Source of the DNA: Fodinibius salipaludis
GTDB taxonomy: Bacteria > Bacteroidota > Rhodothermia > Balneolales > Balneolaceae
Reading direction: 5' to 3'
Assembly (NCBI RefSeq): GCF_002287075.1
Contig: NZ_NSKE01000004.1
Location: 186,001-250,000, forward strand
Length of the DNA stretch: 64,000 nucleotides
Shown here: positions 4,152-43,630 of the stretch, piece by piece
How the letters are laid out: each line of letters opens with the position of its first letter
Position numbering within the stretch: the stretch's first letter is position 1
Notes under the pieces: generated by a model
Databases searched by the model: none
Told to the model about the DNA's origin: nothing
Seen by the model: the letters and a program-made list of their open reading frames with translations, nothing else
Made by a program: the position numbers and the translations under genes

Positions 4152-5287
4152 TGCTGTACGAACTCTTACATTGGTTAGAAGTTACTTATCAGCCCCCTGG
4201 CTTTGGTGCATTTGAATTTATTACAACCCGGGCTGCCATTGCTGCGGCCATGGCCCTGTTTATCAGTGTAATGATTGGTCGACGTATTATCGAATGGCTT
4301 GAAAAGATGCAACTGCGCGAAGTAATCCGCGAAGATATTGGACTGGATACACATCTTGGCAAGGCACACACCCCCAGTATGGGTGGACTAATTATCCTTC
4401 TGGCTATTCTTATTCCGGCCGCTTTTTGGATGAAAATGGATAGTATCTATACGTGGATGATTATCCTCGTTACACTTATCCTGGGCGTGGTCGGCTTTGC
4501 TGATGACTATATCAAAGTGGTTAAAAAGGATAAGTCGGGTCTAAGCGGAAGGCTTAAAGTAGCCGGACAGGTTTCTGTGGGCTTATTACTCGGACTTACG
4601 CTATACTTTTGGCCGGAGTTTCAAGACTTTAATACGCTTTCTACGGTGCCATTCCTAAAAAATGTAAACATCGACTACGCCATATTGGGCGAAGCACTCG
4701 GCTGGGTTATTTATATCCCGATGGTCGTTTTTGTAATTACAGCTGTAAGTAACGCTGTGAACTTAACGGACGGCCTTGATGGTCTTGCAGCCGGCACATC
4801 AGCTATAGCAGGACTTATCCTCGGCATTTTTGCCTACGTATCGGGACGAACCGACTTCTCTGACTTCCTTGATATCATCTATCTGCCGGGAGCCGGAGAG
4901 TTGACCATATTCGCCGCATCACTGGTGGGTGCTTGTATGGGATTCCTGTGGTACAATGCCCATCCGGCTTCTGTTTTTATGGGTGATACCGGATCTCTGG
5001 CCTTGGGCGGATCTTTTGGAGCCTTGGCTCTTATGCTGCACAAAGAACTTTTGCTGCCCATTATATGCGGAATCTTTTTTGTTGAAACCGTTTCAGTAAT
5101 TATTCAGACAACCTATTTCAAATATACAAAGCGGAAATATGGTGAAGGAAAACGGGTCTTTTTGATGACCCCAATCCACCATCACTTTGAGAAAAAGGGA
5201 CTACCTGAATCTAAAATTGTAATTCGCTTTTGGATTATTGCGGTGCTCCTTGGAATCCTAAGTCTCTTAACCCTTAAGCTACGATGA
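4151..5287 (+). CDS. mraY: Phospho-N-acetylmuramoyl-pentapeptide transferase
   Basis: Integral membrane enzyme that transfers phospho-MurNAc-pentapeptide from UDP to undecaprenyl phosphate, giving lipid I. About ten membrane segments are visible. Family signatures are all present: DDYIK at 118-122, NAVNLTDGLDGL from 201, the catalytic aspartate region MGDTGS at 277-282, and the PIHHHFE histidine motif at 341-347. Length (378) is close to that of E. coli MraY. The start codon overlaps the murE stop (TAATG) and the stop overlaps murD by four bases (ATGA), so the gene sits in a tightly coupled run. Confidence 0.97.
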   Translation: MLYELLHWLEVTYQPPGFGAFEFITTRAAIAAAMALFISVMIGRRIIEWLEKMQLREVIREDIGLDTHLGKAHTPSMGGLIILLAILIPAAFWMKMDSIYTWMIILVTLILGVVGFADDYIKVVKKDKSGLSGRLKVAGQVSVGLLLGLTLYFWPEFQDFNTLSTVPFLKNVNIDYAILGEALGWVIYIPMVVFVITAVSNAVNLTDGLDGLAAGTSAIAGLILGIFAYVSGRTDFSDFLDIIYLPGAGELTIFAASLVGACMGFLWYNAHPASVFMGDTGSLALGGSFGALALMLHKELLLPIICGIFFVETVSVIIQTTYFKYTKRKYGEGKRVFLMTPIHHHFEKKGLPESKIVIRFWIIAVLLGILSLLTLKLR

Positions 5288-6651
5288 GAGAAGTTGCTAA
5301 CAAACATATCGTCGTTGTGGGAGCCGCCCGAAGTGGGCTTGCTGTGGCATCGCTATTGAAGCGAAAAGGAGCTGATGTATTTGTGACTGATCATGGCGCT
5401 ATTGCCCATTCTGTAAAGAAGAAATTAACCACACTGGATATCGATTTTGAAGAAAATGGACATACAACTAAAGCAGAAGGGGGCGCATTTTTGGCCATCA
5501 GTCCCGGGGTACCCACAGAAGCACCTCTGGTACAAAAATATCTAAACAGTGGAAAAGAAGTGTATTCGGAGATTGAAATAGCCAGCTGGTTTAATAAAAG
5601 CCCCATTGTGGCAGTAACAGGCAGCAATGGTAAAACAACGGTAACAAACTGGCTGGATCATACTTGGAAAAAAGCCAGCCGTGATCATATAACCGGTGGT
5701 AATATTGGATACGCATTCTCTGACAAAGTTGATCAAACATCAGAAAACAGCGAAGCCTTGTTAGAAGTCAGCAGTTTTCAGCTGGATCACATAGATAGCT
5801 TCCACCCACATATAAGTGTGTTACTAAATATTACGGCTGATCACCTTGATCGATACAACCATGATTTTTCAAGCTATGCAAAATCGAAATTTCGAATTAT
5901 TGAAAACCAAACGGGTAACGACTGGTTCATTTACAATTATGATGATCCAACAATTACCGAGTATGTATATTCACTTAAAAAAAAAGAAGAGGGACCCCGG
6001 CTTCTACCCTTTTCAACCGACGAAGATCTTTCAGAGGCCAATGGAGCTTTTATTCGAAATCAAAACATCATTTTAAAAATCAACAAACAAGAAGAGGTAC
6101 TCATGCCAACTCGTGATGTTAATCTTTCTGGTAAGCATAATTTAAGCAATGGACTTGCTACGGCTCTTGCCGCTCGTGCTTCCGAAATTAAAAGTGATGC
6201 CATCCGTGAAAGTCTGCGCACTTTTGAAGGCGTGGAACACCGTCTCGAACTGGTGCGCACGGTTAACGGAGTAAAATACATCAACGACAGTAAGGCAACC
6301 AATATCAATGCAGTGTGGTATGCCCTCGACAGTTTTGATGTTCCTATGACCATCATCTTGGGCGGACGTGATAAGGGAAATGATTACTCCGAGTTAGTCA
6401 ATCAAATCCAGGAAAAAGTCCACACAATTATTGCGATAGGCGAAGCTCAGCCAATGATTGAAGAGCAACTAAAATCGATAGTTCCCAATTTTAAAACTGC
6501 TAAGGATATGAATAACGCCGTACGATCGGCCAAGGAGGTAGCCAAGCGGGGTGAAGTTGTTTTGCTAAGCCCGGCATGCTCCTCTTTTGATATGTACGAC
6601 AATTATGAACACCGAGGCAATGAATTCAAAAAAGCAGTAAATCGACTTTAA
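5284..6651 (+). CDS. murD: UDP-MurNAc-L-Ala:D-glutamate ligase
   Basis: Cytoplasmic Mur ligase that adds D-glutamate to UDP-MurNAc-L-alanine. An N-terminal Rossmann-type start (VVVGAARSGLA) is followed by the ATP-binding loop VTGSNGKTT at residues 111-119 and the conserved SSFQL and NDSKATN stretches of the central domain. Length (455) is normal. The start overlaps the mraY stop (ATGA). After its stop the close packing of the cluster is interrupted by a 73-base gap with an inverted repeat before ftsW. Confidence 0.96.
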   Translation: MREVANKHIVVVGAARSGLAVASLLKRKGADVFVTDHGAIAHSVKKKLTTLDIDFEENGHTTKAEGGAFLAISPGVPTEAPLVQKYLNSGKEVYSEIEIASWFNKSPIVAVTGSNGKTTVTNWLDHTWKKASRDHITGGNIGYAFSDKVDQTSENSEALLEVSSFQLDHIDSFHPHISVLLNITADHLDRYNHDFSSYAKSKFRIIENQTGNDWFIYNYDDPTITEYVYSLKKKEEGPRLLPFSTDEDLSEANGAFIRNQNIILKINKQEEVLMPTRDVNLSGKHNLSNGLATALAARASEIKSDAIRESLRTFEGVEHRLELVRTVNGVKYINDSKATNINAVWYALDSFDVPMTIILGGRDKGNDYSELVNQIQEKVHTIIAIGEAQPMIEEQLKSIVPNFKTAKDMNNAVRSAKEVAKRGEVVLLSPACSSFDMYDNYEHRGNEFKKAVNRL

Positions 6652-40113: not shown

Positions 40114-41109
40114 TTACATTTGATTCTTCAATATTTTTGATGCTGCCTTGGCGAAATACGTAGCAATCAGATCTGCACCGGCTCGCTTAAAGCCGACCAA
40201 TGCTTCCATCATCGCTTCTTCTTCGTTCAACCACCCTTTCTCAGCAGCAGCCTTTAACATAGCGTATTCTCCGGAAACATTATAGACCGAGACGGGCACC
40301 GAGACATTTTCTTTAACGGCTCTGATGACATCCATATAAGGCAACCCCGGCTTTACCATCACGATATCGGCCCCTTCCTGTTCGTCAAGCTTCGCTTCTT
40401 TGATTGCTTCCTGAACATTGGCGGGATCCATCTGGTACGTTTTCTTATCACCGAATCCAGGCGCCGAATCCAGCGCATCCCGAAAGGGCCCGTAGTAACT
40501 GGAGGCGTATTTTGCGCTGTACGCCATGATGCCGGTGTGCTCGTAACCTTCTTTATCCAACGCTTCACGCATGGCACCGATACGACCGTCCATCATATCC
40601 GACGGAGCCACCATATCAACACCGGCTTTGGCATGACTCACGGCCATCTCAGAGAGTATTTCCACGGATTCATCATTCAATATCTCACCGTCCTCTACGA
40701 TGCCGTCGTGACCATAGCTCGAATAGGGATCCATTGCGATGTCAGTCATCACCAGCATTTCGGGGAATTCTTCTTTAATAGCTCGAACTGCCCGCTGCAT
40801 CAATCCATCGGGATTAAGCGCTTCTGTACCTTTATTATCTTTGAGCTCATCAGGTACCTTCGCAAATACCAATACCGAACGAATCCCAACTTCTTTCAGC
40901 TCCCGGATTTCATCCATCAATAGATCCAACGTATAGCGATAATAGTCCGGCATGGATGGAATTTCGACCTTTTTATTTTCTCCATCCATCACAAAAACAG
41001 GAGCGATAAAATCAGCCGGTTTAAGATTATGTTCGGCCACCATATCGCGCATAGCTTCCGAAGTTCGCAATCGTCGTCCGCGTATGTATGGAAATTGTCC
41101 GTGTGTCAT
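40114..41109 (-). CDS. hemB: Porphobilinogen synthase (5-aminolevulinate dehydratase)
   Basis: Condenses two 5-aminolevulinate molecules to porphobilinogen. RGRRLRTSEAMRDMV at the N-terminus, SDMMDGRIGAMRE, and the Schiff-base lysine in MAYSAKYASSYYGPFRDA followed by VKPGLPYMDVI are family signatures. The open frame extends to an ATG at 41148, but its first ten codons are a dispersed repeat (GGGCGTATCGCAATACGCCC read in reverse); the ATG at 41109 (MTHGQFPYIRGRRLR) gives the usual N-terminus and was chosen. It follows hemF closely on the minus strand. Confidence 0.95.
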   Translation of the reverse strand: MTHGQFPYIRGRRLRTSEAMRDMVAEHNLKPADFIAPVFVMDGENKKVEIPSMPDYYRYTLDLLMDEIRELKEVGIRSVLVFAKVPDELKDNKGTEALNPDGLMQRAVRAIKEEFPEMLVMTDIAMDPYSSYGHDGIVEDGEILNDESVEILSEMAVSHAKAGVDMVAPSDMMDGRIGAMREALDKEGYEHTGIMAYSAKYASSYYGPFRDALDSAPGFGDKKTYQMDPANVQEAIKEAKLDEQEGADIVMVKPGLPYMDVIRAVKENVSVPVSVYNVSGEYAMLKAAAEKGWLNEEEAMMEALVGFKRAGADLIATYFAKAASKILKNQM

Positions 41110-41126
41110 ATCAATTAAAACTGTTG

Positions 41127-41146
41127 GGGCGTATCGCAATACGCCC
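41127..41146. repeat. GGCGTATCGCAATACGCC hairpin repeat at the hemB 5' end
   Basis: GGGCGTAT (41127-41134), loop CGCA, ATACGCCC (41139-41146): perfect 8-base stem. The same 18-base core recurs between carA and carB at 56066-56083. It lies in the 45-base hemF-hemB gap when hemB starts at 41109. Confidence 0.85.
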
Positions 41147-41154
41147 ATGCAAAT

Positions 41155-42507
41155 TTAGTTTCGATTTAAAATTCCTTCTTCTTCACCGTATTCAATCCAA
41201 TCAATAGGATTTTCAAGTCGATCTAAAAGATATGCCTCTCGGCTGTCTTCTTTGATTTCAAAATCATAATCCCACCGCACGCGTGGCGGTAGACTCATCA
41301 ATATCGACTCCGTCCGCCCGTTTGTTTTTAAGCCGAATAATGTACCGCGATCATGAATCAAATTAAACTCGACATAACGTCCGCGACGAATCTCCTGAAA
41401 GTATCGCTGTTGATCGGAGTATTTTTCGTCTTCTCGCCGTTTGATTATCGGCACATAGCTATCCAAAAAAGCATCCCCCACATCTGTTGTAAAGTTGTAC
41501 CAGTCCTCAGCAGTCCGTTCTTCATTAGAACGCAAGTAATCAAAAAACAGCCCCCCAATTCCGCGCCCCTCCGACCGGTGATCATTATAGAAGTATTCGT
41601 CACACTCCTTTTTAAACTTGGGATATAAATCTTTGCCATGATTATCACAAGCAGCTTTCAACACTTGGTGAAAATGCACCGCATCTTCATCCCACAAATA
41701 ATAGGGCGTTAAATCCGCGCCGCCGCCAAACCACTGATCACGCACTTCGTTCATCTCAGCATCATCGTAGAGCTCAAAATAGCGGTAGTTAGCATGTACG
41801 GTCGGAACCATTGGACTCTTGGGATGGATAACGAGCGAAAGTCCACCGGCCCAGAACCACCCCTCTTCTACTTCAAATCGCTTACGTATCAGCTCGGGAA
41901 GTTCTCCGTGCACGCTGGATATATTCACTCCCCCCTTTTCAAAAACGTCGCCTTTTTCGATCACCCGAGTATGACCGCCACCTCCGCCATCGCGTTCCCA
42001 ATCGTCATGGCGAAATCGTGCCCTTCCGTCAATTGCTTCCAGAGTATCACAAATCTCATCCTGTAACTTACGAATGTAGGCTTCAAATCGATTTTTGATC
42101 GAGGTCTCGTCAAAGTCCCCCTTCGAAGGGGGATGATCTTCTACCCATCCTTTAATAGATCGTTCTACATTTTTAAGATCATTCATGACTTCATCATCCG
42201 TAAATCGCAATATGGTAAAGCCTTTCTCTTCAAGCTCTTTTTGTCTATCTAAGTCCTCATACCACTGGCGTTCATCCTCATGTGAATACCCATCAACTTC
42301 AATGATCAGCTGTAGCTCTTTACACATAAAATCAGCGATATAATTCAATACCGGCCGCTGACGAAGGAAAGTATATCCTTTCATTTTACCCGCTCGCAAC
42401 ACTTCAGACCAAAGCCTTATTTCAGCTTTCGTTGAGTCTTTTCGGAGCTTACGAGCAAGCTCTTTCAAATCTTTGTTATAACCGTAATTATCGTATTCAG
42501 TTGACAT
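41155..42507 (-). CDS. hemF: DUF559 nuclease-like domain fused to coproporphyrinogen III oxidase (HemF)
   Basis: Residues about 138-450 are an intact oxygen-dependent HemF, which decarboxylates coproporphyrinogen III to protoporphyrinogen IX: KNRFEAYIRKLQDEICD, GGGGGHTRVIEKGDVFEKGG, MVPTVHANYRYFE, WFGGGADLTPYY and the C-terminal LPPRVRWDYDF are all conserved. Residues about 8-125 are instead a DUF559 (Vsr/PD-(D/E)XK-like) domain: RLWSEVLRAGKMKGYTFLRQ, RPVLNYIADFMCKELQLIIE, VDGYSH and ILRFTDDEV. The join (EDHPPSKGDFDE) is encoded by the palindrome at 42116-42133. No ATG, GTG or TTG in frame lies near the start of the HemF part, so HemF is probably made only as the fusion. Normal HemF has about 300 residues; this frame has 450. 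Confidence 0.92.
   Translation of the reverse strand: MSTEYDNYGYNKDLKELARKLRKDSTKAEIRLWSEVLRAGKMKGYTFLRQRPVLNYIADFMCKELQLIIEVDGYSHEDERQWYEDLDRQKELEEKGFTILRFTDDEVMNDLKNVERSIKGWVEDHPPSKGDFDETSIKNRFEAYIRKLQDEICDTLEAIDGRARFRHDDWERDGGGGGHTRVIEKGDVFEKGGVNISSVHGELPELIRKRFEVEEGWFWAGGLSLVIHPKSPMVPTVHANYRYFELYDDAEMNEVRDQWFGGGADLTPYYLWDEDAVHFHQVLKAACDNHGKDLYPKFKKECDEYFYNDHRSEGRGIGGLFFDYLRSNEERTAEDWYNFTTDVGDAFLDSYVPIIKRREDEKYSDQQRYFQEIRRGRYVEFNLIHDRGTLFGLKTNGRTESILMSLPPRVRWDYDFEIKEDSREAYLLDRLENPIDWIEYGEEEGILNRN
42116..42133. repeat. CCCCCTT/AAGGGGG palindrome at the DUF559-HemF junction
   Basis: TCCCCCTT-CG-AAGGGGGA is a perfect 18-base palindrome inside the fused gene. Read away from the DUF559 part it is TCATCCCCCTTCGAAGGGG followed by GACTT, the same outward-facing sequence as the copy at 42529-42561 on the other side of the DUF559 segment. 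Confidence 0.9.
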
Positions 42508-42525
42508 ATTTTGATAGTTACCTTA

Positions 42526-42561
42526 GGTCATCCCCCTTAATCCCCCTTCAAAGGGGGACTT
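42526..42561. repeat. CCCCCTT/AAGGGGG repeat upstream of the DUF559-hemF start
   Basis: GGTCATCCCCCTTAA precedes TCCCCCTT-CA-AAGGGGGA (42541-42558) and CTT. Compared with the copy at 42116 it has an extra CCCCCTTAAT unit. It lies between hemE and the fused hemF and, with the 42116 copy, brackets the DUF559 coding segment in inverted orientation. Confidence 0.85.
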
Positions 42562-42580: not shown

Positions 42581-43630
42581 TTAATCTGTAGCTGTGTACT
42601 CCTTTACAGTATCAACGAAAACACGGGCATTATCTACGGGAATGTTCGGCAAAATTCCATGGCCCAGATTCGCAATATATTTCTGTGTCCCGAATCGGTC
42701 GATCATTCGCTTGGTCTGGCGGCGGATTTCATCTTGCGGCATCATCAGTTTTGAGGGATCAAAGTTGCCCTGCAAAACGACATCTCCGCGCGTAGCATCC
42801 CGTCCATATTCAGGAGTGATTGTCCAATCAAGTCCCAGTGCCTGCGCATTGCTCTTAAAACTGAGTCGCTCGAGCGCATACCAGCTACCTTTGGCAAACA
42901 GAATCACCGGCACCTCGTCGATGGCATCACAAATCTCCATAAGGTACGGCATCGCCCACTCGTTAAAATCTTCGGGGCTTAACAAACCTGACCAAGAATC
43001 AAAAAGCTGTACTACCTGCGCACCGGCCTTTATCTGCGCTTTCAGGTAATCAATCGTTGCCTTGGTTAGCTCTTTCATTACATGCTTGGCCGCATCAGGA
43101 TGCTGATACATAAAGGCTTTGGCCTTGGCAAAATTCTTGGAGCCTTCGCCCTGTACCATATAGCAGAAGAGCGTCCATGGTGCCCCGGCAAAACCGATCA
43201 GCGGCACGCGTCCGTTGAGCTCCTTACGCGTTAGTGTTATTGCCTCCATAACATGATTGAGCTTCCCGGGAATATCCTCAGCCAAAATCGAAAAGGCATC
43301 ATCCACACTGCTAATGGGGTTTTCCATCACCGGACCTTTGCCTTTAACCAGATCCACATCAATACCAAGTGCTTGCGGAATCGTTAGGATATCCGAAAAG
43401 ATAATAGCGGCGTCCGGTTCGAGTTCATCAATAGGCTGAATGGTAATTTCACAGGCCAGCTCAGGCGTTTCTACACGTTCAAAAAAAGTGTATTTCTTGC
43501 GTAGCTTCATATACTGCGGCAAATAACGGCCGGCCTGACGCATCATCCATACGGGCGGACGTTCAATTTCTTCGCCGCGTAGTGCTCGTAGCAGTAAATC
43601 ATTTTTTAGTTCCGGAAAATTGTTACTCAT
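42581..43630 (-). CDS. hemE: Uroporphyrinogen decarboxylase
   Basis: Removes four carboxyl groups from uroporphyrinogen III to form coproporphyrinogen III. RPPVWMMRQAGRYLPQYM is the N-terminal signature, FSDILTIPQALGIDV the second conserved block, and LIGFAGAPWTLFCYMVQG and NLGHGILPNIPVDNA are also diagnostic. Length (349) is normal. On the minus strand it follows hemD after a 49-base gap that includes a degenerate CCCCCTT repeat, and precedes the DUF559-hemF fusion. Confidence 0.97.
   Translation of the reverse strand: MSNNFPELKNDLLLRALRGEEIERPPVWMMRQAGRYLPQYMKLRKKYTFFERVETPELACEITIQPIDELEPDAAIIFSDILTIPQALGIDVDLVKGKGPVMENPISSVDDAFSILAEDIPGKLNHVMEAITLTRKELNGRVPLIGFAGAPWTLFCYMVQGEGSKNFAKAKAFMYQHPDAAKHVMKELTKATIDYLKAQIKAGAQVVQLFDSWSGLLSPEDFNEWAMPYLMEICDAIDEVPVILFAKGSWYALERLSFKSNAQALGLDWTITPEYGRDATRGDVVLQGNFDPSKLMMPQDEIRRQTKRMIDRFGTQKYIANLGHGILPNIPVDNARVFVDTVKEYTATD

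Follow-up and report, generated by a model that had tools for sequence, protein, structure and literature searches.

Knowledge of triplex-type repeats of the BoxC, PIT and TM kind dates back to the 1990s, and hundreds of genomes, including that of E. coli K-12, contain such repeats. They have been found in cyanobacteria, enterobacteria and Neisseria, and for the E. coli repeat TM-ECO triplex folding was shown in vitro (PMC4666352). Holder et al. (2015) never found a mobility function near these repeats and attributed the turnover of the motifs to instability (PMC4666352). DUF559, a protein family of unknown function, is here tied to such repeats, which were previously without a known mobiliser. 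A search of open-licence papers, which by this restriction gives no proof of absence, did not retrieve a link of DUF559 or its E. coli member ycjD to triplex repeats.

The window analyzed here, a stretch of 64 000 nucleotides from Fodinibius salipaludis, carries on its minus strand an open reading frame of 450 codons with an ATG start (41155..42507). As the original prediction had stated, and as ORF and Pfam analysis confirmed, this hemF frame opens with a complete DUF559 domain. The DUF559 nuclease domain comprises residues 13–119 (42151..42471, minus strand; supported by Pfam, conservation and dN/dS) and matches PF04480 with 103 bits against a cut-off of 20.6 (E 8e-30). It contains the conserved E..D..ExDG motif and keeps the invariant residues E29, W33, R49, Q50, D59, F60, E70, D72, G73 and D85 as well as the nearly invariant H76. 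The domain of HemF, the oxygen-dependent coproporphyrinogen III oxidase, follows at residues 141–437 (41197..42087, minus strand; Pfam E 8e-130), with PF01218 and NF003727 at 432 and 413 bits, both above cut-off. The fused frame is the only hemF found in its own genome and lies in the haem operon between hemE upstream (42581..43630, minus strand), which bounds the insertion site on the left, and hemB downstream (40114..41148, minus strand).

Both halves are connected by the linker HPPSKGD (42115..42135, minus strand), whose translation confirms that it is encoded by the inner repeat. The AlphaFold2 model of the fusion predicts two folded domains and a low-confidence linker, with pLDDT below 50 at residues 128–134. 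Since the first in-frame ATG, GTG or TTG past the inner repeat is a GTG located about 45 codons inside HemF, the HemF part has no start codon of its own, which had likewise been proposed. An annotation or assembly artefact, in which DUF559 and hemF would be separate genes and the hemF start unrecognised, is scarcely credible: it has the general frequency of such errors in its favor and nothing more, whereas the same open frame is present in the assemblies of four species, in none of which an ATG, GTG or TTG intervenes between repeat and conserved HemF domain.

The DUF559 segment is bracketed by C5/G5 palindromes at 42113–42134 and 42540–42561 with a mutual complementarity of 95%. The outer (left-hand) repeat (42525..42561) reads on the minus strand as a hairpin CCCCCTTTGAAGGGGG, a spacer ATTA and a box AGGGGGATGACCT, the palindrome thereby bearing an extra AGGGGGATGA box at 42525–42538, and it fits the intrastrand triplex pattern CCCCCTT..AAGGGGG ATTA AGGGGGATG. 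The inner (right-hand) repeat AAGTCCCCCTTCGAAGGGGGATGATCT (42113..42139) is 9 bp, or three codons, shorter than in three sister species, which have the longer form TCATCCCCCTGCGCCCCCTTCGAAGGGGGAC, and with these 9 bp the separate box, i.e. the second purine block, has gone; this loss may have reduced the mobility of the copy in the window. The two bracketing copies of the original prediction do exist, with these small corrections. Without mismatch, TCCCCCTTNRAAGGGGGA occurs in the window just at these two sites, and shuffled sequences gave a mean of 0.15 matches even when three mismatches were allowed. Genome-wide, where repeat counts rest on pattern searches, three exact cores were found compared to about 0.003 expected. 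An Rfam scan of the region gave nothing above noise. A solo CCCCCTT repeat of the same genome (L051, 1555–2010; G000:C2, about 104557) has a small second hairpin inserted between stem and box, and G007 and G003 possess this extended form as well.

Comparison with relatives revealed the fusion together with both palindromes in four of the 12 species of the genus (G000, G003, G006 and G007), whereas the other eight possess the uninterrupted hemF anticipated for close relatives, with its own ATG and lacking the palindromes. This split of the congeners into fused genes with palindromes and plain genes without them supports an insertion, and fused copies always carry the repeats. In a species of another genus (G021), the same unit is situated unfused between hemE and hemF; its DUF559 frame likewise crosses the right repeat (HPPAPPSKGD) and stops 10 codons later. 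The haem operon of G030 also holds a related unit, here fused to the end of HemD. A single insertion in one Fodinibius clade is ruled out by a tree of HemE, HemF and HemB (996 columns), which rejects a clade of the four fused species (AU test, p=2e-6); a grouping of the four fused DUF559 halves receives modest support. Since the fused species form no clade, repeated gain or loss, or transfer, re-insertion or movement with the locus, has to be assumed. The intergenic DNA between hemE and hemF has diverged, so that the exact insertion ends and any empty site at hemF are unreadable. The idea that a small unit of nuclease gene and terminal repeats landed 5′ of hemF and supplied its start is hence supported by presence and absence, from which we infer the movement itself, but its repeats are dispersed triplex-type REPs and not private terminal repeats. 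The dN/dS of the fused DUF559 ranges from 0.03 to 0.11, similar to HemF, at a near-saturated dS. These low values and the retention of all conserved catalytic-type residues are indicative of a domain that is maintained under strong purifying selection.

Fusion of DUF559 is not confined to haem synthesis. The DUF559 frame is still open at the start of the downstream repeat in 36 of 98 cases, and fusions to other proteins are found accordingly. DUF559 carries an enzyme at its C-terminus in the case of QueG (two taxa), a PALP-family dehydratase, IspG/GcpE, CutC and RNase H, and at its N-terminus in the case of N-formylglutamate amidohydrolase, a PurQ-like GATase and HemD (loci of these fusions other than HemD: L164, L112, L230, L173, L134, L229, L227 and L224), with linkers that are mostly repeat-coded and composed of Pro and Gly. 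It is also found as an in-frame insert midway along HsdM, the methyltransferase subunit of type I systems (G080 and G211; L233, L234), and, with repeat-like edges, inside an HsdR-like protein (G176:C74, L232) and an M23 peptidase (G089:C1, L228). The HsdM of G254 (L237) is 94% identical over its first 394 residues and has no DUF559, but we rejected it as a clean empty site because a repeat-like in-frame remnant persists at the same point; what it illustrates is therefore a DUF559 lost or gained between repeats and not a virgin site. A presumed glycosyltransferase–DUF559 fusion (L003) was discarded owing to a stop codon between the two. Separately, very long open frames of about 1100–1480 aa hold a distinct class of DUF559 domains (G182, G154, G107, G152 and others).

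These fusions bear on the question of whether the DUF559–HemF protein arose as an adaptive domain fusion for the control of haem synthesis, with palindromes that act as terminator- or attenuator-like signals and have nothing to do with mobility. Conservation of both halves and the second fusion in the same operon (HemD–DUF559 in G030) would agree with such an origin. We nevertheless regard it as most improbable, given that DUF559 is joined to the unrelated enzymes listed above, from QueG to HsdM, mostly via repeat-coded linkers, that the same repeats also occur outside genes and that the fusion is distributed patchily over close relatives.

To describe the surroundings of DUF559 genes in general, we aligned 300 bp upstream locally with 300 bp downstream, in direct or inverted orientation, and counted scores of at least 30. 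By this measure, 53 of 66 DUF559 genes in relatives were repeat-flanked, compared to four of 535 windows of the same geometry from the same loci. Across phyla (Bacteroidota, Planctomycetota, Cyanobacteria, Chloroflexota, Nitrospirota, Thermotogota, Patescibacteria, Alpha- and Betaproteobacteria and others), this applied to 65 of 82 further genes versus 15 of 877 windows, so that flank-to-flank repeats accompany 79–80% of the sampled DUF559 genes and 0.7–1.7% of control windows. None of 29 HNH nuclease genes from the same genomes was repeat-flanked in this test. The repeats share a common build of C-rich hairpin, short spacer and G-rich box, which was found in proper orientation within 300 bp of 128/148 DUF559 genes (42/1008 windows) and on both flanks of 72/148 (0/1008 windows). 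In intergenic DNA, the repeats are 8.4 times as dense close to DUF559 as at greater distance, and 14–20% of the DUF559 genes have no detectable repeat. Y1/RAYT-type transposase genes of the same group (L285–L311), which served as positive control, were repeat-flanked in 13 of 20 cases (65%); hence two REP systems coexist in this group.

The expectation that DUF559 genes elsewhere have flanking repeats was thus borne out in architecture, the sequence usually being a different one that follows the DUF559 subtype. Repeat similarity tracks DUF559 sequence similarity (Mantel r=0.34, p<0.0005), amounting to 0.79 for similar DUF559 proteins in different genomes versus 0.61 for different DUF559s within one genome. 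Judged by these similarities, repeat and nuclease co-diverge, the repeat type going with the DUF559 subtype and not with the host genome. Across 122 repeats, the box mirrors its own purine arm (z=8.4; 0 of 5000 permutations against mirrors of the arms of other repeats), G facing G at 90% and A facing A or T at 87% of the mirror positions. The repeats accordingly possess a pyrimidine arm, a complementary purine arm and a second purine block mirroring the first, by which we assign them to the purine-type intrastrand triplex motifs of the BoxC/PIT/TM-ECO class.

The same association is encountered in E. coli. The E. coli DUF559 gene ycjD has an exact copy of TM-ECO as its neighbour, and its final codons extend into such a triplex repeat, from which the C-terminus RRSPSP derives. 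In MG1655 (L316, 1347500–1352500), degenerate and intact BoxC/TM-ECO repeats follow the gene. Out of 5426 complete E. coli genomes, 3365 possess ycjD and about 38% do not. In 60 genomes sampled evenly, BLAST matches to the triplex repeat numbered 11–26 (median 17) with ycjD and 1–14 (median 3) without it (p=2e-10), a difference that is confounded by phylogroup. A clean empty site between sapF and fabI was not obtained, as the ycjD-less strains examined (L317, L318) have an RND/TetR gene pair beside fabI, so that no exact junction is readable.

One might argue that DUF559 is an ordinary resident nuclease of repair or defence, that the repeats are spread by something else or arise by replication slippage and gather near DUF559 genes at repair hot spots made by its cutting, and that the fusions are accidental. 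Such an explanation could draw on triplex repeats in genomes and loci devoid of DUF559, on the instability invoked by Holder et al. (2015; PMC4666352) and on the purifying selection of the fused copy, which could mean a host function. We consider it unlikely, because the repeat type tracks the DUF559 subtype across genomes and not the host genome, because whole units are present or absent at hemF and in HsdM and duplicated in G001, and because of the 8.4-fold repeat density near DUF559 genes.

The duplication in G001 consists of two DUF559 units of 540 bp that are 99.6% identical and 3.2 kb apart (L050, G001:C1:328800–336500; 1932–2471 and 5183–5722). Their identity starts exactly at the CAATCCTCCTG repeat on the left, and the right end falls inside a repeat, in what is a single case. 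At this degree of identity, the pair represents a recent duplication. The unit hence displays presence and absence at orthologous sites (hemF, HsdM) as well as a new copy (G001), the hallmarks of a mobile element. Solo CCCCCTT repeats number 1, 4, 0 and 15 in the fused species, while one was found in one of the eight other congeners (Mann–Whitney p=0.017). CCCCCTT palindromes also occur in G022 and G009, in which a close DUF559 of that subtype was not found; these may be relics or represent a transferred population. Another repeat type, TCAATCC...GGGAGATTGA, forms dispersed REPINs with fixed ends and unrelated flanks, up to about 38 per genome and, among 39 genomes searched, confined to this genus. 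A target duplication, as is characteristic of DDE transposons and classical MITEs, was not found, the dispersed REPIN sites being inspected by eye.

This latter result also concerns the possibility that the unit is a passenger, namely a MITE-like element that carries DUF559 as cargo and is mobilised by a different transposase (RAYT/Y1 or DDE) acting in trans. Candidate Y1 genes are at hand, with five weak matches in the own genome and representatives in 19 of 39 relatives, and these genes are repeat-flanked as well. However, the fused species G006 lacks a Y1 match, as do several congeners with g1-type REPINs (G001, G002, G006 and G008), the missing target duplication counts against a DDE enzyme, and the repeat co-diverges with DUF559, which together leave the passenger model quite improbable.

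We therefore favor, as the probable explanation, that DUF559 is a RAYT-like, REP-associated nuclease that moves with triplex repeats and probably spreads them. DUF559 genes lie amid the same kind of orphan repeats across phyla and may thus be the enzyme spreading these. Our confidence is limited because the ends are unfixed, some DUF559 genes have no repeats and some genomes with repeats have no close DUF559. An ancestor of the Fodinibius-like group would have received, between hemE and hemF, a mobile DUF559 gene with its cognate triplex-type repeats. Its frame, having no stop before the right repeat, would then have read through into hemF to give DUF559–linker–HemF; the native hemF start would have been lost, and selection would since have preserved the fusion in four species. 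Probably, the DUF559 protein recognises its cognate repeat by the hairpin–box fold, in DNA that is single-stranded during replication, and would nick it, whereupon repair or replication at the nick may copy or delete repeats and, less often, the whole unit. The copying step is left unexplained by this model, since a hydrolytic nuclease alone cannot rejoin DNA.

Going further, we tentatively suggest as a serious possibility that DUF559 proteins are the missing mobility enzymes of the triplex (BoxC/PIT) repeats and define a new class of element, whose Vsr-like nuclease recognises an intrastrand triplex and whose ends, left open by the ORF, land in frame at the start, at the end or inside of host proteins without splicing. 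The link between DUF559 and triplex repeats makes the question of repeat mobility testable in E. coli K-12. If true, it would represent a second, unrelated solution to the REP–RAYT problem and a way for selfish DNA to generate novel fusion proteins, with a resident nuclease domain on HemF, IspG and QueG or inside HsdM.

Homing endonucleases reside in introns or inteins. On the structural level, the DUF559 model (7 rows from plasmid records were left out of the structure and conservation inputs) resembles the Neisseria DUF559 crystal structure 3hrl (NGO0050; TM 0.83) and the catalytic domain of the homing endonuclease I-Bth0305I (PDB 3r3p; TM 0.81, profile E 0.0014), the latter, a representative of the EDxHD Vsr-like homing endonucleases, being the closest solved fold after 3hrl. 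The predicted fold is hence of the Vsr/homing-endonuclease type. Unlike homing endonucleases, DUF559 units are associated with neither spliced RNA nor inteins, and inspection revealed no intron or intein around the unit.

The repeats themselves match the BoxC/PIT/TM-ECO repeats in their C-rich arm, purine arm, short loop and second purine block and in their dispersal. The latter were described without an associated mobility gene (PMC4666352), whereas most DUF559 genes sampled here, in many phyla, sit among such repeats. Rickettsia palindromic elements are similarly palindromic repeats that lie in frame in host genes and are translated, but they are short (about 150 bp), and in the passages considered no nuclease gene is reported with them (reviewed in PMC10969869), whereas the DUF559 insert brings a whole nuclease domain. 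CGTC-tagged REPs resemble the repeats considered here as an orphan hairpin-repeat superfamily without dedicated transposase (Di Nocera 2013, PMC3733652). A pairing of DUF559 with them was rejected, as the alphaproteobacterial DUF559 genes examined and the Neisseria DUF559 loci carry C/G-run triplex-type repeats instead.

The most instructive comparison is that with REP/REPIN–RAYT systems (TnpA-REP, Y1 HUH). As in these, the DUF559 gene lies among its cognate dispersed hairpin repeats, which also occur as inverted pairs, show no target duplication and follow the enzyme in their type. Unlike RAYTs, DUF559 is a predicted PD-(D/E)XK/Vsr-like nuclease and not a HUH tyrosine enzyme: the Pfam matches of the fused frame include no Y1_Tnp domain with its HUH motif, and the model matches Vsr-like nucleases. 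Its repeats, moreover, are composed of a triplex-type hairpin and a G box and are not GTAG-tagged. Being repeat-flanked and devoid of Y1_Tnp, DUF559 would therefore work like a RAYT without being one.
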